From the NCBI GenBank assembly GCA_018821785.1, contig JAHJLI010000084.1:27461-91460 (forward strand): a DNA stretch of 64,000 nt. Reading direction: 5' to 3'. A program made the translations under genes and the position numbers. The DNA comes from Pseudomonadota bacterium. Lineage in GTDB: Bacteria > Desulfobacterota > Desulfobulbia > Desulfobulbales > Desulfocapsaceae. Below are positions 1,149 through 8,981 of the stretch, piece by piece (position 1 is the first letter of the stretch; each line of letters begins with the position of its first letter). Under the pieces are notes generated by a model that saw only the letters and a program-made list of their open reading frames with translations, had not been told where the DNA came from and did no database searches.

Positions 1149-2435
1149 ATGGACGCCTACATCCTTATCGGCAGCCTGTTCTTCCTTATGGCCATCGGAG
1201 TACCTGTGGCTTATACCCTGGGCCTGGTGTCGATTATCGGCGCCCTGCTCATCGACCTGCCACTTGACGCGGTGATGATCCAGATCGCCAGTGGGGTCAA
1301 CAAATTTTCGCTTCTGGCCATCCCCTTCTTCGTTTTGGCCGGGGCGATCATGGCCGAAGGCGGGATTGCCAATCGCCTGGTGAACTTCGCCGCCATCTTT
1401 GTCGGCTTTATCCGTGGCGGCCTGTCGCTTGTCAACATCCTTGCCTCGACGTTTTTCGGTGCCATCTCCGGTTCATCGGTGGCCGACACCGCATCCATCG
1501 GTTCAGTACTCATTCCACAGATGGAGAAAAAAGGTTACCCTCGCGAATTCGCCACCGCTGTGACCTGCGCAGGCTCAGTCCAGGCCATCCTCATCCCGCC
1601 GTCGCATAATGCGGTCATCTATTCGCTGGCCGCCGGTGGTTCTGTTTCCATCGCCGCCCTTTTTGTCGCGGGCGTCATGCCCGGCATCTTCCTCGGCTCG
1701 ACAATGATGGGCATGTGTCTGTATTTCGCCAAGAAACGTAATTTTCCAAAAGGTGACCCCATTCCCTTGAGAGACGCGATTCGCATCGCCCGCGATGCCC
1801 TCTGGGGGCTGTTGACGGTTGTCATTATCCTCGGCGGCATCCTCTCCGGTATCTTTACCGCCACCGAGTCGGCCTCCATAGCCTGCGTGTGGGCATTCTT
1901 CGTCACCATGTTCATCTACCGCGACTACAAATGGCATCAATTGCCGATCCTTGTACACCGGACAGTGAAAACGGTGACCGTGGTTATGATACTTATTGGT
2001 TTTGCCGCAAGTTTCGGCTATATCCTCACCTTGATGCAGATCCCGATGAAGATCACCGCCTTCTTCTCCAGTCTGTCGGACAACCGCTATGTGATTCTTC
2101 TGGCGATAAACGTTATGCTCATTATGCTCGGCACCCTGATGGATATGGCCCCGCTCATCCTCATCCTCACCCCAATGCTCCTGCCGGTGATCCATACCCT
2201 TGGTATCGATCCGGTGCATTTCGGGATGATCATGATGGTCAACCTCGGCATAGGCCTGATCACCCCGCCGGTTGGTTCGGTGCTCTTTGTCGGCAGCGCT
2301 GTGGCCAACCTGTCCATCGAGAAGGTGACCAAGGCAATGACACCCTTTTATTTCGGACTCCTTGCCGTACTCATGGGGATCACCTATGTCCCCGAAATAT
2401 CCCTGTGGCTGCCACGCCTGGTGGGACTCAATTAA
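1149..2435 (+). CDS. TRAP transporter large permease (DctM family)
   Basis: A 428-residue, highly hydrophobic protein of normal DctM length with about 11-12 membrane segments. Family features are visible: the N-terminal GVPVAYTLGL, the AGAIMAEGGIANRL and STFFGAISGSSVADTASIG region (the repeated sodium/substrate site), PPSHNAVIYSL, and near the end GLITPPVGSVLFVG. It forms the transport channel with the DctQ subunit and is driven by the sodium gradient rather than ATP. It starts 5 bases after the small permease gene and ends 15 bases before an RpiR regulator, in keeping with a single transcript for uptake, control and catabolism of one sugar acid. Confidence 0.95.
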   Translation: MDAYILIGSLFFLMAIGVPVAYTLGLVSIIGALLIDLPLDAVMIQIASGVNKFSLLAIPFFVLAGAIMAEGGIANRLVNFAAIFVGFIRGGLSLVNILASTFFGAISGSSVADTASIGSVLIPQMEKKGYPREFATAVTCAGSVQAILIPPSHNAVIYSLAAGGSVSIAALFVAGVMPGIFLGSTMMGMCLYFAKKRNFPKGDPIPLRDAIRIARDALWGLLTVVIILGGILSGIFTATESASIACVWAFFVTMFIYRDYKWHQLPILVHRTVKTVTVVMILIGFAASFGYILTLMQIPMKITAFFSSLSDNRYVILLAINVMLIMLGTLMDMAPLILILTPMLLPVIHTLGIDPVHFGMIMMVNLGIGLITPPVGSVLFVGSAVANLSIEKVTKAMTPFYFGLLAVLMGITYVPEISLWLPRLVGLN

Positions 2436-2450
2436 CAAGAAGAAATTGCC

Positions 2451-3290
2451 ATGGCCGATACTCTAGCCCTTATCCGCGAATCCATCGAATCTCTACGAAA
2501 TTCGGAAAAGAAGGTGGCGAAATGCGTCCTTGCCAACCCCTCTGCGGTCATTACCTCCTCAATCACCGAGCTGGCGGAACGTTCCGACACGAGCGAACCG
2601 ACGGTCATCCGTTTCTGCCGCAAATTGGGACTCGGCGGCTATATGGAACTGCGCCTCAATCTCGCCCGCGACCTGCCCTCAAGCCAATATATATATGAAA
2701 ATATCAGCGACGGCGACAGCCTGGCCGGAATCGCCGGCAAGGTCCTGAACGCCCATCGCGAGGCAATCAGCAACACCCTGACCCGGCTCAGCCTCGATGA
2801 TCTCGACCTCGCGGTGAAAGCCCTGCAGGCCGCCAGGCGCATAGAGTTCTACGGCTTCGGCGGCTCGGCTATCGTCGCCCGCGACGCCTACCATAAATTC
2901 TTTCGACTGGGCATCCCCTGCGCCGCCCAGGACGATTCGCATAAGCAGGTGATGTCGGCCGCTCTCCTTGGCCCTGGAGACGTGGTGGTGGTTGTCTCCC
3001 ATACCGGCTCAACCAAGGATATCATCGATAGTGCGAGAATCGCCCGAAAGGCGGGGGCCAAGGTAATCGGACTGATCGGCAGCGAAAACTCACCGCTTCT
3101 AAAAGAATGCGATATCTCCCTGTCGGTATTTTCCCAGGAGGCTGCTCTGCGCCTTGCGCCGATGACCTCGCGTCTGGTGCAGCTGGCAATTGTCGACGTA
3201 CTGTTCGTTGCTGTGGCCATGAAGAATTTTGACGAAACCAAGGAGCGTCTCGACCGGGTAAAACGTTCCCTGGTTGACAAGCGCTATTGA
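2451..3290 (+). CDS. RpiR/MurR family transcriptional regulator (HTH + SIS domain)
   Basis: A 279-residue protein of typical RpiR length. Residues about 1-75 form the N-terminal HTH_6 domain (SEKKVAKCVL, ITELAERSDTSEPTVIRFCRKLGL), and about 120-250 form a SIS phosphosugar-binding domain (RIEFYGFGGSAIVARDAYHKF, VVVVSHTGSTKDIIDSARIARKAGAKVIGL). RpiR regulators usually sense a phosphosugar intermediate of the pathway they control. Here it sits between the TRAP transporter and eda/kdgK, so KDPG or a related phosphoketosugar is a plausible effector (inference). No operator could be identified because the operon promoter lies outside the window. Confidence 0.93.
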   Translation: MADTLALIRESIESLRNSEKKVAKCVLANPSAVITSSITELAERSDTSEPTVIRFCRKLGLGGYMELRLNLARDLPSSQYIYENISDGDSLAGIAGKVLNAHREAISNTLTRLSLDDLDLAVKALQAARRIEFYGFGGSAIVARDAYHKFFRLGIPCAAQDDSHKQVMSAALLGPGDVVVVVSHTGSTKDIIDSARIARKAGAKVIGLIGSENSPLLKECDISLSVFSQEAALRLAPMTSRLVQLAIVDVLFVAVAMKNFDETKERLDRVKRSLVDKRY

Positions 3291-3363
3291 AGAATTTTAA
3301 TTGAACATCTTGCAGACTAGCAGCGGCTCTAGCCCTACGGCAGTCCCTTTCAGGAGCAAAAAT

Positions 3364-3996
3364 GTGTTTTATGATACACTGAAAAAAATCCGGCTGGTTC
3401 CGGTGGTGGTGATCGACGACGCGGAACTGGCAACACCCCTTGCCGAGGCAATCTCGGCCGGAGGTCTCTCCTGCGTGGAAATCACCCTGCGCACGGACGA
3501 GGCCTTGGCGGCCATAAAAACCATGGCGGCAAGACCCGACATTCTCGTCGGGGCCGGCACCGTTTTGACCCTTGACCAAGCCAAGGCCGCAGTTGATTGC
3601 GGGGCCAGCTTCATCGTTTCCCCCGGCATGAGCCCCACCCTGGTTGATTGGTGCCTCGCCCGGCAGGTTCCGGTGATTCCCGGCTGCGCCACAGCCACCG
3701 AGATCCAAATGGCAATGGAGCAGGGGCTCGAAACGGTGAAATTTTTCCCGGCCGAACAACTCGGTGGAATTTCGATGCTTCAGGCTCTTGCCGGGGTGTT
3801 TCGGGCAATGCACTTCATGCCCACCGGCGGAATCACCGCCGGCAATCTCCTGCATTACCTGGCCCTGCCCCAGGTGGTCGCCTGTGGCGGCAGCTGGCTG
3901 GTGAAAACCGAGTGGCTGAGAGACAAGAAATTTGTTAATATCCGCCAGGAAATCAGCAAGGCCGTTGAATTGCTCAATAACACTTTGACGAGGTGA
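3364..3996 (+). CDS. eda: 2-dehydro-3-deoxyphosphogluconate (KDPG/KHG) aldolase
   Basis: The product splits KDPG into pyruvate and glyceraldehyde 3-phosphate. Family marks: VVVIDDAELATPLAEAISAGG with CVEITLRT (the catalytic Glu region), VGAGTVLTLDQAKAA, the Schiff-base lysine in GLETVKFFPAEQLGG, and the phosphate-binding MPTGGIT segment. I chose the GTG at 3364 because AGGAG lies 7 bases upstream and the resulting 210 residues match the family; a TTG at 3301 in the same frame would add 21 unconserved residues. It follows the RpiR gene and its stop overlaps the ribosome-binding region of the kinase gene, so translation is probably coupled. Confidence 0.93.
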   Translation: MFYDTLKKIRLVPVVVIDDAELATPLAEAISAGGLSCVEITLRTDEALAAIKTMAARPDILVGAGTVLTLDQAKAAVDCGASFIVSPGMSPTLVDWCLARQVPVIPGCATATEIQMAMEQGLETVKFFPAEQLGGISMLQALAGVFRAMHFMPTGGITAGNLLHYLALPQVVACGGSWLVKTEWLRDKKFVNIRQEISKAVELLNNTLTR

Positions 3997-3998
3997 TT

Positions 3999-5027
3999 AT
4001 GATCGACGTGCTTTCCCTGGGTGAGGTGATGCTGCGCTTTGATCCAGGCCTCACTCGTATTGCCGAGGCAGAGCATTTCAAGGTCTGGGAAGGGGGCGGT
4101 GAATACAATGTGGCGCGCGGCTTGAGCAGGTGCTTCGGATGGCGTACTGCGGTCATCACCGCCCTCGTCGATAACGCAGTGGGCCAGCTCATCAAAAACC
4201 GCATTGCCGCTGGAGGAGTAGCAACTGATCTTATTCGCTGGCTGCCGGACGACGGTATCGGAGAATCCTGCCGCAACGGTGTTTACTTTCTCGAACGGGG
4301 TTTCGGCCTCAGGCCGGCGCTGGGCGTCTCGGACCGGGGACACAGCGCCGTCTCACAACTGCGGCCCGGCGATATCGACTGGAGTCGGATTTTTACCGAA
4401 CACAAGGTTCGCTGGTTTCACACCGGTGGGATCATGGCCGGGCTGTCGCCGTCCAGCCCCCAAGTTATCATCGAGGCAATGACGGCGGCCAGGCAGCACG
4501 GCACAACGGTCTCCTACGATCTCAACTTCCGCCCCTCACTCTGGCAGCGGTTCGGCGGCAAAAAAAAGGCCGAGGAGATCAACCGATCCATCCTGCCCTA
4601 TGTCGATGTGCTGTTCGGGGTGGAAGGGCTTGACTCCGCAGCATCCAACCTGGATCCCGCCCCTTTTTGCCTGGCGATTGAGACAACAGCCAGAGAGCAT
4701 ACACAAATCGCGTCCATCGCCACCACCATGCGCATTGTCAGAACCGCCACATGTAACGACTGGAGCGGTCTGTTATGGCACAAGGGAAATGTATACGAGG
4801 GTCCCCTTTTCCCAAATATGGAAATCCTCGACCGGGTCGGCGGCGGCGATGCTTTCGCCGCCGGAATCATCCACGGCCTGCTGTCGGATCTTCCCCCGCA
4901 AAAAGCCATCGACTACGGGGTAGCTCATGGAGCGCTTACCATGACTACGCCGGGCGACAACTCTATGTTCACCCTGCCCGAACTCGACCGCGTCCTGGCC
5001 AACCGTAACGCGGGCGTTGTCCGCTGA
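3999..5027 (+). CDS. kdgK: PfkB-family sugar kinase, probable 2-keto-3-deoxygluconate kinase
   Basis: A 342-residue PfkB carbohydrate kinase. It starts with LSLGEVMLRFDPG, has the substrate-binding glycine pair in VWEGGGEYNVARGLSRCFG and the C-terminal PfkB signature with the catalytic Asp in RVGGGDAFAAGIIHGLL. Next to a KDPG aldolase, phosphorylation of 2-keto-3-deoxygluconate to KDPG is the natural role, though the family also contains other sugar kinases. The ATG at 3999 is preceded by GAGGTGAT and lies just after the aldolase stop; an in-frame GTG at 3993 is less likely. It is the last gene of the operon; the next gene is on the opposite strand and ends 24 bases downstream. Confidence 0.88.
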   Translation: MIDVLSLGEVMLRFDPGLTRIAEAEHFKVWEGGGEYNVARGLSRCFGWRTAVITALVDNAVGQLIKNRIAAGGVATDLIRWLPDDGIGESCRNGVYFLERGFGLRPALGVSDRGHSAVSQLRPGDIDWSRIFTEHKVRWFHTGGIMAGLSPSSPQVIIEAMTAARQHGTTVSYDLNFRPSLWQRFGGKKKAEEINRSILPYVDVLFGVEGLDSAASNLDPAPFCLAIETTAREHTQIASIATTMRIVRTATCNDWSGLLWHKGNVYEGPLFPNMEILDRVGGGDAFAAGIIHGLLSDLPPQKAIDYGVAHGALTMTTPGDNSMFTLPELDRVLANRNAGVVR

Positions 5028-5050: not shown

Positions 5051-5869
5051 TTATTGCTTCCTCTCGCCGAAGCCAAAAATGGCTCCCTGAATAATCGGGG
5101 TGATAAAAGCACATTGTTCGGGAGTCAGATAACCTCCAGGAATACATTGTTTCTCTTTCCGAAACACCTTGGCATGTTCTTCTGACCAGAAGAACACCGA
5201 TTGTCGTCAGAATGCTTCGATGATACTGACGTCATTGTGGGATTTGAAATCGACATCAGGGATAAAGATTAATGGCGAAGCCTCCGGCTGATGAACATGC
5301 ATATGCAAATCGCTGCCAATGGTTAAGGACAAAGGCCTTCTGCAACAGGCACATTCGGTCTGTATTTCAACTTCCAGCGGTTCTTTTCTCAGGCGCCCCT
5401 GCACGAAGGGCGTGGCAAATGCGTCTATTGCTCAGGCTGCAAATATCTGCTCACCTGTAGAAAAAATCGCCTTGTGGGGAGTTGTCGCCACCGTGACCGG
5501 ATAGGCCCAGATCACCTCTCCCTGGTTGTTTCGAAACAGAAAGAATTTTTCGGCTTCAAGATTATCAAGAAGTTGTACTACTTGCCGAGGATCAAGACCC
5601 AAGTCCCGGGCAATTATTGATGGTGCCAGAGGAACAGCCGACCGGGGAAGTTCCTGCACGACAAAATTGCGCACCATATGGTGGGCAGAAGTCACACCTT
5701 CCCAATACAGGGCAAAGTCGAGGCATGACGTATAACAGCCAGGAAAACTGGACAACAGTAGTGGAAACATATCGGACCATTGGAACATTGTGTTACAAAG
5801 AGGCCTATAACACCGATATTGTGTGCGTAATTTCGTTTTTCCAGTGCACGCGGTAACCATGATTTCCAT
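5051..5869 (-). CDS. Alkylmercury lyase (MerB)-like selenoprotein candidate with two in-frame TGA codons
   Basis: One continuous minus-strand frame runs from the ATG at 5869 to TAA at 5051-5053 and is interrupted only by TGA at 5432-5434 (codon 146) and 5207-5209 (codon 221). Read through, it gives 272 residues. It has a MerB-like winged-helix region (APSIIARDLGLDPRQVVQLL), then GEQIFAA-U-AIDAFATPF, which matches the MerB active-site segment WCALDTLMFP (Cys96 and Asp99). ECACCRRPLSLTIG matches HCAATGAPVSLTV (Cys117), and EAF-U-RQSVFFWSEEHA matches SFCCHVHFFAS (Cys159 region). Both TGAs therefore sit exactly at catalytic cysteines, and homology continues after each. A GGAGG lies about 13 bases before the ATG. 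MerB cleaves carbon-mercury bonds with these residues; the true substrate here is unknown. The alternative, a twice-mutated pseudogene, is much less likely. No mer genes are nearby. Confidence 0.82.
5174..5197 (-). promoter_or_regulatory. Bacterial SECIS hairpin following the second in-frame TGA
   Basis: Read on the minus strand, the bases after TGA 5209-5207 form a near-perfect stem: GTGTTCTTCT, loop GGTC, then AGAAGAACAT (10 pairs, the outermost a G-U). The apical loop starts 19 bases after the TGA. A short stem capped by a GGUC-type loop at this distance is the classic layout recognised by SelB in bacterial selenocysteine genes such as fdhF. The hairpin also encodes residues FFWSEEH of the protein, so it lies inside the coding frame as bacterial SECIS elements do. 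Confidence 0.78.
5394..5412 (-). promoter_or_regulatory. Possible SECIS hairpin following the first in-frame TGA
   Basis: On the minus strand, 19 bases after TGA 5434-5432, CGCCC pairs with GGGCG, with a possible U-G pair closing a loop of about 7 bases (TCGTGCA). Stem position and loop distance (about 25 bases from the TGA) are in the usual range for bacterial SECIS elements. The loop lacks the clear GGUC seen at the second site, so this is a weaker call. Confidence 0.4.
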
Positions 5870-6010
5870 TATTGTGTACTGAACCTCCGGTGAGGTTTAT
5901 AAGCATATCGGCGTGTGACCCTCTTTTTCGTATATCTATCATCTAGATATTACTCAACTCCCTGTAGTTTTTAGCTCCTTTTCTCCCGGCGTTTTTCCCC
6001 ATCCCTCCAT

Positions 6011-6027
6011 TTGGCAAGACTCTTGCT
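6011..6027 (+). promoter_or_regulatory. Sigma-54 (-24/-12) promoter for alanine dehydrogenase
   Basis: TTGGCAAG, four bases, then TTGCT. The invariant GG (6013-6014) and GC (6025-6026) are separated by exactly 10 bases, matching the TGGCAC-N5-TTGCW consensus closely. Transcription would start near 6038, leaving a leader of about 120 bases before the ald start codon. A sigma-54 promoter requires an enhancer-binding activator; one such protein is encoded at 50498-52057, but no link between the two is shown. Confidence 0.7.
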
Positions 6028-6157
6028 ATACAGCTTGTCGAAAGCACCGATGATTTACGGCACTCACATTTTACGCTAGTAAATGCGGTCAACCATATGC
6101 GTTCTCTCAAAGATTATAACAATGGGGGACACTTTTTTAACCGGGAGGTTTAACAGT

Positions 6158-7270
6158 ATGAACGTTGGTATTCTGAAAGAAATCAAAGTCGCTGAGAACA
6201 GGGTGGCAATGACTCCGGCGGGGGTTGAAACCATGAAGGCGCATGGCCACAGCGTGATGGTTGAGAAGTCGGCGGGTGAAGGCAGCGGATTTGCCGATGC
6301 TGCTTACGTCCAGGCAGGAGCGGAGCTTATTGAAAATCCGGCTGAAATTTACGCTCGATCAGAGATGGTCATGCATGTCAAGGAACCCCAGCCATCCGAA
6401 TACGATCTGGTTCGGGAAGGGCAGATTGTCTTCACCTATTTTCATTTTGCTCCGAACGAGCAACTCACCCGTGCATTTGTTGCCAATAAATCCATCGCCA
6501 TTGCCTATGAAACCGTAGAGGGTCCGAGAGGAGATCTGCCCCTTCTCACGCCGATGAGTGAGGTCGCCGGGAGAATGTCGATGCAGGAAGCAGCCAAATA
6601 TCTTGAACGATCTTACAATGGACGGGGTGTTCTGCTTGGTGGAGTGACGGGGGTTGCCCCGGCAACAGTCGTGGTCGTCGGCGGTGGCGTTGTCGGCACC
6701 AATGCCGCCCAGATGGCCTGCGGTCTTGGTGCCAAGGTATACCTGCTGGACATGAACCTGGACAGGCTTCGCTATCTTTCAGAAATAATGCCGAAGAATT
6801 GTTTTCCGATGATGAGCAGTCGAACCCTTCTTCGGGAACTCGTAATGGAGGCCGACGTGGTGATCGGCGCTGTTTTGGTTGCCGGCACCAAGGCACCACG
6901 CCTGGTCACCCGCGAGATGCTGAAAACAATGAAAAAAGGTGCAGTCATCGTTGACGTGGCGATCGACCAGGGTGGCTGTTTCGAAACATCAAAACCAACC
7001 ACTCATACTGAACCGACCTATGAAGTTGACGGCATCATTCACTATTGTGTCGCCAATATGCCTGGCGCCGTTCCGGTAACGTCAACAATGGCCCTGACTA
7101 ACGCCACCCTTCCGTACGCCGTTCAACTCGCCAACCACGGTTGGAAAAATGCTGCCCGGCACAACCACGGGGTCAAAACAGGCCTGAATATGGTGCATGG
7201 AAGTGTTACCTACAAGGGAGTCGCCGATGCCTTTAACCTCGACTACACCCCGGTTGAGACGGTGCTGTAA
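6158..7270 (+). CDS. ald: Alanine dehydrogenase
   Basis: NAD-dependent enzyme interconverting L-alanine with pyruvate and ammonia. The 370 residues equal the normal family length. Visible marks: NVGILKEIKVAENRVAMTP (pyruvate-binding Arg), MHVKEPQPSEYDLV (catalytic Lys/His region), the NAD-binding loop VVGGGVVGTNAAQMACGLGA, and VDVAIDQGGCFETS with the catalytic Asp. The ATG at 6158 is preceded by GGGAGG; upstream in-frame codons from 6083 would add unconserved residues lying inside the leader. It is followed by an alanine symporter gene, so the pair would import alanine and deaminate it for carbon, energy or nitrogen. Confidence 0.96.
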   Translation: MNVGILKEIKVAENRVAMTPAGVETMKAHGHSVMVEKSAGEGSGFADAAYVQAGAELIENPAEIYARSEMVMHVKEPQPSEYDLVREGQIVFTYFHFAPNEQLTRAFVANKSIAIAYETVEGPRGDLPLLTPMSEVAGRMSMQEAAKYLERSYNGRGVLLGGVTGVAPATVVVVGGGVVGTNAAQMACGLGAKVYLLDMNLDRLRYLSEIMPKNCFPMMSSRTLLRELVMEADVVIGAVLVAGTKAPRLVTREMLKTMKKGAVIVDVAIDQGGCFETSKPTTHTEPTYEVDGIIHYCVANMPGAVPVTSTMALTNATLPYAVQLANHGWKNAARHNHGVKTGLNMVHGSVTYKGVADAFNLDYTPVETVL

Positions 7271-7385
7271 GTGAAGAGCTATTTTTTCTCTTGAAGAAGA
7301 AATTTATATCATTATTACGATGAAACTCCAGCAGAAAGGTCAGTCCCGCTCACTGAAGTTTCGCTCAAAAAAATAAGAGGTTTTT

Positions 7386-8981
7386 ATGGATTTACTCAGC
7401 ATTTCAACGGCCACGGACGACTTCTTCTGGAGTCAGGTCATGATTTACGGATGTCTTCTGGCCGGAGTGTATTTCTCAGTCCTCATGAAGTTCCCACAAC
7501 TTCGTCTGGTCAAGGACATGGTTAAGCAGCTTTTCAGCGGCAGATCATCCGCCTCGGGCGTATCTTCCTTCCAGGGCTTTGCCATGGCGCTGGGCGGCAG
7601 AGTTGGAACCGGAAACATTACCGGCGTGGCTTCGGCAATATTCTTCGGTGGTCCCGGTGCGGTTTTCTGGATGTGGGCGATCGCCTTCGTGGGGGCCGGT
7701 TCCGCGTATATTGAATCAGCTTTGTCACAGGTGTGGAAAGAAGAGGTTCACGGTGAATATCGTGGCGGCCCGGCTTACTACATGGAGAAAGGGCTGAAAA
7801 GTCGCCCCCTTGGCATCGCCTTCGCGATCCTCACCGTCTTTGGCTGCGGGCTAGCCCTACCCGGCATCCAGACCAATGCCTTTGCGCAGGCCGGCAGCCT
7901 TTCCCTTGGGATGGCTCCCTGGGTATCTGGTCTGATATATACGGTCCTTACCGGCTATGTCGTTTTCGGTGGCGGCAGGCGAATTGCCAAATCAGCTGAG
8001 ATGATTGTTCCGTTCATGGCAGTCGCCTACATCCTGGTTGCCATGGTGGTAATGTTTGCAAACATCGACAAAATCGCCGGAGTCTTCCATTTGATCTTCA
8101 GCTGTGCATTCAATATGAACGCTGCCTATGGTGCCGTTTTTGGGTTGGCGATCCAATGGGGCGTCAAGCGAGGCGTCTTTTCCAACGAAGCCGGTCAAGG
8201 CACAGGTGCTCAGGCTTCCGGCGCAGCAGAAGTCTCCCATCCGGCCAAACAAGGGCTGGTGCAGGCCTTTTCCGTCTATGTCGACACCCTTTTTGTCTGT
8301 ACGGCAACAGCCGTCATGATTCTGGCAACCAATACCTTCAATATGGCTGACCCGGCAAACAAGGGTGGCTTCCTCGTGCAAATGCTGCCAGGCGTAGAAA
8401 AATCCAACTTCACACAACTTGCTGTCGATTCGGTATTGCCGGGCTATGGTGGCGCATTCGTGGCCGTTGCCCTGTTCTTCTTCACCTTTACAACCGTACT
8501 GGCCTACGCCTTCTACACGGATTCAAGCATTGCCTACCTGTTCAAGAAAAACGCCAGCGGGTCCGGCTACAAATACGGTATGCTTCTTTCCCGGTTGGGC
8601 ATTGTGGCAATGACGTTCATCGGTGCGGTCAGCCAGGTCGATGTTGTCTGGAACTTTGGTTCCGCTGCAGTGGGTGCTATGGCCTGGTTTAATATCATTG
8701 TCATCGTACTCCTCACCAAACCGGGTCTCGCGACCTTGAGAGATTTCGAGGCGCAGAAAAAATTGGGGCTTGACCCGGTTTTCATTCCTTCACGTTGCGG
8801 TATCAAAGGCGCTGAAATCTGGGAAGAGATCGCTGCCAGAAACTATCCCGAACAGCTGGCAGCGTTGAAAGAAAAAACAGGTGATTCTCTTGATGCTGAG
8901 GAGGCTGAAATCTGGGAAGGGGAAGGTGGCAAGAAGTCTCCTGAACACATGGTGGTTAAGGTAAAAACCGACGGACAGTAA
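7386..8981 (+). CDS. Sodium:alanine symporter (AGCS family)
   Basis: A 531-residue membrane protein with about 10-11 membrane segments. AGCS signatures are clear: GFAMALGGRVGTGNITGVASA near residue 70, PGAVFWMWAIAFVGAGSAYIES, YRGGPAYYMEKGL, and GVKRGVFSNEAGQGTGAQASGAAEV in the middle. It takes up alanine or glycine with sodium. It lies 115 bases after ald. The C-terminus is odd: the last 80 or so residues are hydrophilic, charged and contain a repeated AEIWE motif (about residues 472 and 507), an extension not needed for transport. A strong hairpin follows the stop. Confidence 0.94.
   Translation: MDLLSISTATDDFFWSQVMIYGCLLAGVYFSVLMKFPQLRLVKDMVKQLFSGRSSASGVSSFQGFAMALGGRVGTGNITGVASAIFFGGPGAVFWMWAIAFVGAGSAYIESALSQVWKEEVHGEYRGGPAYYMEKGLKSRPLGIAFAILTVFGCGLALPGIQTNAFAQAGSLSLGMAPWVSGLIYTVLTGYVVFGGGRRIAKSAEMIVPFMAVAYILVAMVVMFANIDKIAGVFHLIFSCAFNMNAAYGAVFGLAIQWGVKRGVFSNEAGQGTGAQASGAAEVSHPAKQGLVQAFSVYVDTLFVCTATAVMILATNTFNMADPANKGGFLVQMLPGVEKSNFTQLAVDSVLPGYGGAFVAVALFFFTFTTVLAYAFYTDSSIAYLFKKNASGSGYKYGMLLSRLGIVAMTFIGAVSQVDVVWNFGSAAVGAMAWFNIIVIVLLTKPGLATLRDFEAQKKLGLDPVFIPSRCGIKGAEIWEEIAARNYPEQLAALKEKTGDSLDAEEAEIWEGEGGKKSPEHMVVKVKTDGQ

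Follow-up and report, generated by a model that had tools for sequence, protein, structure and literature searches.

A MerB-family gene with conserved UGA codons at both catalytic cysteine positions and its predicted two-selenocysteine product

The 64,000-nucleotide stretch analysed here (the window), part of contig JAHJLI010000084.1 of a Desulfocapsaceae genome (GCA_018821785.1), carries at 5869-5051 on its minus strand a single frame that is interrupted solely by two TGA codons, 146 and 221, and is closed by TAA. We consider it fairly probable that the gene encodes a MerB-family protein with two selenocysteines (Sec) which cleaves carbon-metal bonds, most likely those of methylmercury. A first-pass annotation made from the letters alone had proposed a MerB-like protein with Sec at both catalytic cysteines. 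Its frame and codon positions proved correct, as did its alignment of the two TGAs and a nearby aspartate with Cys96/Asp99 and Cys159 of MerB, the equivalent of Cys117 being Cys173. Homology to MerB before, between and after the TGAs was borne out by a Pfam match and by relatives, codons 1-58 lying outside the family. Conserved TGAs, hairpins, Sec genes and a predicted MerB fold support the overall proposal.

Conservation of the two TGA codons

Named species genomes were scanned with six peptide patterns, none of which extends across codon 146 or 221, and 80 of 94 loci were kept. Their record labels include Deltaproteobacteria, Chloroflexi, Acidobacteria, Binatia, Rokuibacteriota, KSB1, Nitrospirae, Bacteroidota, Spirochaetes and others. 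The codon pair at the two positions was TGA/TGA in 78 of the 80 loci and TGC/TGA in the other two (L069, L080); TAA or TAG was found inside the frame in none of the 80, and the terminal stop was TGA in 37, TAA in 22 and TAG in 21. A profile search of 117 relatives returned four matches, namely the window genome, L100 (a full member) and two genes for SaoL, a MerB-like selenoprotein considered below. Strong matches (E < 1e-60) numbered 15 among 395 genomes of the phylum, the window genome included; each had at least two TGAs, and one (L109) also a TAG. Among 301 genomes of the phylum of an Anaerolineales genome strong matches occurred in two, both already known. All 15 profile-found members (L100 and 14 others) had TGA at both positions, giving TGA/TGA in 93 of 95 relatives, some of which may be the same genomes, as the profile-found members may partly repeat those of the 80-locus scan.

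It had been argued that two stops would hardly fall on both catalytic cysteine codons by chance, and the recurrence in 78 of 80 loci excludes chance. A pseudogene or a sequencing error was rejected on the same grounds, because relatives have TGA at the same codons. The expectation of Cys at these positions in homologues held for more distant MerB-like proteins, which have Cys at both; it did not hold for close relatives, whose codons there are TGA save for a TGC at codon 146 in two of the 80 loci.

The remaining possibility in this group, that the TGAs encode tryptophan under a changed code, draws on 128 database proteins (120 of 158 matches listed, together with those of another search), 44 of which have Trp at both positions. 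The others end at codon 146 (64), have Cys there and end at 221 (15), have Trp and end before 221 (1) or are irregular (4); no close homologue with Cys at both positions was among the 128, and one full-length protein (P0029) has Ser and Cys. The Trp/Trp sequences come from short contigs, the longest of 2,397 bases (40 of the 44 tabulated), as opposed to contigs of up to 755 kb for those that are cut off, which fits a gene finder reading TGA as Trp. They are best explained as TGA read with genetic code 4, an explanation reached without the contigs' DNA at hand, and genuine tryptophan was rejected on this basis. TGG occurred at neither codon in any of 96 sequences, the other codon seen in DNA being TGC, and TGA also serves as a stop where it closes the gene in 37 of the 80 loci. 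Records from many phyla share this pair of TGAs, and chance mutation, sequencing error or Trp decoding is, taken together, highly improbable.

SECIS-like hairpins after both codons

As in bacterial selenoproteins, the conserved in-frame TGAs have Cys counterparts in some homologues and each is followed by a hairpin resembling a selenocysteine insertion sequence (SECIS), CGCCCUU-CGUGC-AGGGGCG after codon 146 (hairpin 1) and UUCUUCU-GGUC-AGAAGAA after codon 221 (hairpin 2). Sequence comparison identifies both as bacterial SECIS-like hairpins, a prediction for which codons frozen among their synonyms, as well as compensatory changes, speak. Under bacterial-SECIS-like rules that we set ourselves (loop at a distance of 16-37 nucleotides, a G among its first two bases, stem of at least 4), such a hairpin followed site 146 in 80% and site 221 in 85% of 81 sequences, as compared with a mean of 21% over 180 codon positions. 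The sites ranked 4 and 1 among these positions, where neighbouring codons share hairpins. With synonymous shuffles the fold excess was sharpest at codon 146 (-3.0 kcal/mol), and in the window copy alone hairpin 2 was moderately more stable than shuffled sequences (z -1.22 and -2.09).

Within the hairpins several codons were frozen (CCC 78/78, TTC 81/81, GTG 79/81, TTC-TTC 81/81 each, GAA 80/81), which was not the case for the columns at the hairpin edges (Leu160, Arg161, His232, Ala233); mean codon entropy was 0.68 versus 1.45 bits (P 5e-4), with region limits of our choosing. Since the search patterns included FFWSEEHA, its invariance in the 80 loci is biased, unlike its choice of codons. For hairpin 1, 18 double-sided covariation cells were counted, a value matched in 0 of 500 shuffles, with 0 to 6 in slid controls. 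For hairpin 2, all five of the profile-found members L107, L109, L113, L116 and L117 have Arg in place of Trp228 and change TGG-TCA to CGG-TCG, thereby converting a U-A stem pair to C-G and keeping the GGUC loop (Fisher P 2.9e-6, the sequences not being independent). FFWSEE also offers an example of an RNA hairpin constraining a protein sequence. The two members in which codon 146 is TGC differ in hairpin 1, L080 having lost pairs of it and L069 having kept it.

Selenocysteine machinery

SelA, SelB, SelD and tRNA-Sec are all present in the window genome, as bacterial selenoprotein synthesis requires; the lack of selB or selC that the annotation had named as an argument against its proposal was not found. 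SelB scored over cut-off in 66 member genomes out of 78 (39/49 and 27/29). SelA did so in 356/395 and 247/301 genomes of the two sampled groups; being common anyway, it makes the co-occurrence with Sec genes merely consistent with the proposal, and machinery co-occurrence was dropped as proof. Two SelD genes of the window genome (L098, L099; G000:C175, C156) each contain one in-frame TGA, and SelD may itself be a selenoprotein here. In Rfam, tRNA-Sec was matched above cut-off twice (L090, L091; G000:C308, C289), at 69.9 and 54.7 bits, the additional match being either another selC copy or due to chance.

Relation to MerB, MerB2 and SaoL

The read-through protein matched Pfam MerB (PF03243) with 47.1 bits, above the gathering cut-off of 27. 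The model predicted for member L010 had a mean predicted local distance difference test score (pLDDT) of 94.2, and its 11 Foldseek matches (E up to 0.001) were all MerB or MerB2; as modelled, the fold of the family is that of MerB. The family shares with MerB (PDB 3f0o and others) this fold and the Asp99 and Cys117 positions. It differs from classical MerB, with its Cys96/Asp99/Cys159, in having Sec codons at both Cys positions, in scoring below the NCBIfam cut-offs (window protein 41.6 vs 193 for NF009710 and 36.3 vs 200 for NF033555) and in that no mer-type operon was seen. MerB2 (PDB 5c17) differs in having two cysteines and Ser in place of Asp99.

SaoL is likewise a MerB-like selenoprotein, whose Sec occupies the Cys159 position just as U221 does in the window protein, and which has Cys117-type cysteines. 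In contrast to the window family, the SaoL genes L102 and L103 retain Cys at the Cys96 position and have a single Sec preceded by Cys (a CU pair) at the Cys159 position; in the window gene TGA occupies both positions and no CU pair is present. The window protein scored 40.1 against the SaoL model NF040728 (cut-off 140), as compared with 177 for L103 of the same order. SaoL formed a separate clade outside the family with support of 0.995, and the family's own node had 0.355, a value compatible with either a shared or a separate origin of the Sec that the family and SaoL have at the Cys159 position. No recurrent operon was found among the nearest open reading frames (ORFs), the SAO models not having been searched one by one. 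The table of a 2026 review lists SaoL with one Sec, and the review's passages on such proteins name no other MerB-like selenoprotein (PMC13188914). A MerB with two Sec did not come up in our literature search; the publications by Haft and Gwadz (2023) and by Haft and Tolstoy (2025), which describe SaoL and further new selenoproteins and are known to us via the review, could mention the family.

L119 is SaoL-like by alignment. Near the SaoL genes, frames with more in-frame TGAs lie at 2875-3372 (minus) in L103 and at 2208-3191 (plus) in L102, which by eye are permease-like and methyltransferase-like with an SCU motif. L124 and L125 (G435, G466) are distant MerB-like sequences that matched weakly (E 1e-5 and 3e-4). 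Two TGAs were counted within them, their normal open frames are short (64-65 amino acids), and they possibly represent another type of seleno-MerB.

Mercury methylation genes and proposed activity

The window genome also encodes HgcA (405.8 bits, cut-off 275), followed by HgcB (109.1, cut-off 99), and thus is predicted to be a mercury methylator. Its HgcA contains NVWCAAGK, which we take to be the hallmark motif of this protein. HgcA was over cut-off in 18 of the 49 other member genomes tested, that is in 19 of 50 with the window genome; by our own grouping of record titles these were 12/19 deltaproteobacterial, 4/17 Chloroflexi-type and 2/13 other genomes. According to a published study, HgcA occurs in 111/2,540, 111/1,529 and 35/228 genomes of three sets (4% to 15%), which are not lineage-matched to ours (PMC7438021), and we treat the link between family and HgcA, drawn from gene content, as a lead. 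According to a 2021 survey, no genome with only MerB codes for HgcAB (PMC8261052). In the genomes analysed here the two-TGA family and HgcA occur together in 19 of 50, MerA not having been searched.

In the proposed mechanism, SelB would decode both UGAs and two Sec would be inserted. The selenols of U146 and U221 would grip the mercury of R-Hg, and Asp149 would give a proton to the carbon, releasing the hydrocarbon. Hg(II) would then be held on the selenols until passed to other thiols or selenols. The Asp99 position is kept in all 80 loci, as expected for protonolysis. As the annotation had suggested, a double selenol may bind mercury more tightly or change the substrate; Sec in place of both mercury-binding cysteines would give the active site an unusually strong grip on mercury, making the lyase a natural test of what selenium contributes to MerB chemistry. 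In HgcAB hosts the enzyme might destroy methylmercury made by the cell itself or by its neighbours. The substrate and this protective role are the least certain parts of the interpretation. That a widespread double-selenol MerB is a missing demethylase of anaerobic methylators, breaking down methylmercury within the very cells whose HgcAB produces it, is possible and we put it forward only tentatively. If the family does cleave methylmercury, this would bear on methylmercury degradation by anaerobes. Since gene prediction tends to end these genes at their first UGA (as in 64 of the 128 database proteins), merB surveys of anoxic sediments could miss the family.

Evidence against and alternative functions

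Several observations weigh against a functional two-Sec lyase in this genome. In the window copy taken by itself, hairpin 1 was not more stable than shuffled sequences (z -0.47 and +1.37), and across the aligned sequences the numbers of covarying pairs and pair types of this hairpin were ordinary (52 and 103 of 500 shuffles). Hairpin 2, which hardly varies, showed no covariation in 81 rows. Nor did synonymous shuffles yield a fold excess at codon 221, which we attribute to FFWSEE itself writing the stem, and in Rfam nothing matched above cut-off, nor did a SECIS family appear up to E 5. No mer-type or shared operon was found among the nearest ORFs of members. HgcA was below cut-off in 31 of the 50 genomes, and the 49 others form a non-random set with no lineage-matched baseline. 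Finally, the profile match of the window copy begins at position 38, and the family N-terminus was not found in any frame.

Some of these points would suit a two-Sec protein of MerB fold with a different task, either cleavage of another organometal or carbon-metalloid bond, or binding and carrying of a soft metal without cleavage. Low scores against the MerB models and HgcA below cut-off in 31 of the 49 member genomes besides the window genome agree with such a task, as do adjacent regulators of two types (among 69 nearest upstream ORFs, seven MarR-type and six MerR-type). SaoL, the nearest selenoprotein relative, is assigned an assumed organometallic role with no proven substrate in the part of the review that treats it (PMC13188914). 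The intact Asp99 position, by contrast, is what protonolysis calls for, and the hgcAB genes of the window genome, like the HgcA of 18 of the 49 others, point to mercury; we regard a different task as the less probable option, if one to be taken seriously.

The missing N-terminus raises the alternative that the family is real and the copy in this genome has a damaged 5' end and is not expressed. Codons 1-58 show neither recognisable family homology nor, position by position within the codon, the base composition of coding DNA; the predicted model is of low confidence before residue 61, and a ribosome-binding site was not clear by eye. On the other hand, both TGAs, both hairpins and a frame of 214 codons are intact, the core by itself was predicted with high confidence, and some database relatives begin at the same place (e.g., P0024, 216 amino acids), although these starts are gene-finder calls. 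A damaged copy appears rather unlikely to us, and we place the probable start of the coding part near codon 59, at the GTG listed in Table 1.

Features and distribution of the window copy

Table 1. Features of the two-TGA gene in the window and of the hgcBA pair elsewhere in the same genome.
Feature	Position	Strand	Remarks
Family-homologous coding part	5051..5695	minus	codons 59-272 plus TAA; profile positions 38-248 matched
Candidate start GTG	5695	minus	aligns with conserved internal Met of the two-TGA family
TGA codon 146, predicted Sec	5432..5434	minus	MerB Cys96 position
Asp149 codon	5423..5425	minus	MerB Asp99 position; Asp in 80/80 loci
SECIS-like hairpin 1	5394..5412	minus	loop CGUGC; folding, conservation, covariation
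Cys173 codon	5351..5353	minus	MerB Cys117 position
TGA codon 221, predicted Sec	5207..5209	minus	MerB Cys159 position
SECIS-like hairpin 2	5172..5199	minus	upper stem 5177-5194, loop GGUC 5184-5187; encoded by FFWSEE motif
Upstream open frame, codons 1-58	5696..5869	minus	unlike family N-terminus; probably non-coding or damaged 5' end
hgcB and hgcA	L135 (G000:C111:1-4500), 869-1162 and 1176-2144	minus	both over NCBIfam cut-offs

The gene is flanked by 2-keto-3-deoxygluconate (KDG)-kinase-like and alanine-dehydrogenase-like genes, named from reading the ORFs. Among 71 downstream ORFs of members, no family occurred in more than three. The guanine-plus-cytosine (GC) fraction was 0.46-0.51 in the gene region, 0.56-0.65 to the left (3400-5000) and 0.44-0.57 to the right (5800-7500), and the gene was absent from all 14 genomes of the same genus (56 to 99% complete). 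The GC difference and this absence suggest that the gene was acquired by transfer, or else lost repeatedly. In the same-order copy L100 the gene is flanked by two 180-base repeats (1287-1466 and 2291-2470) that are 91% alike and start near GCCTAAC at the gene end, a cassette-like arrangement that could explain the patchy spread.
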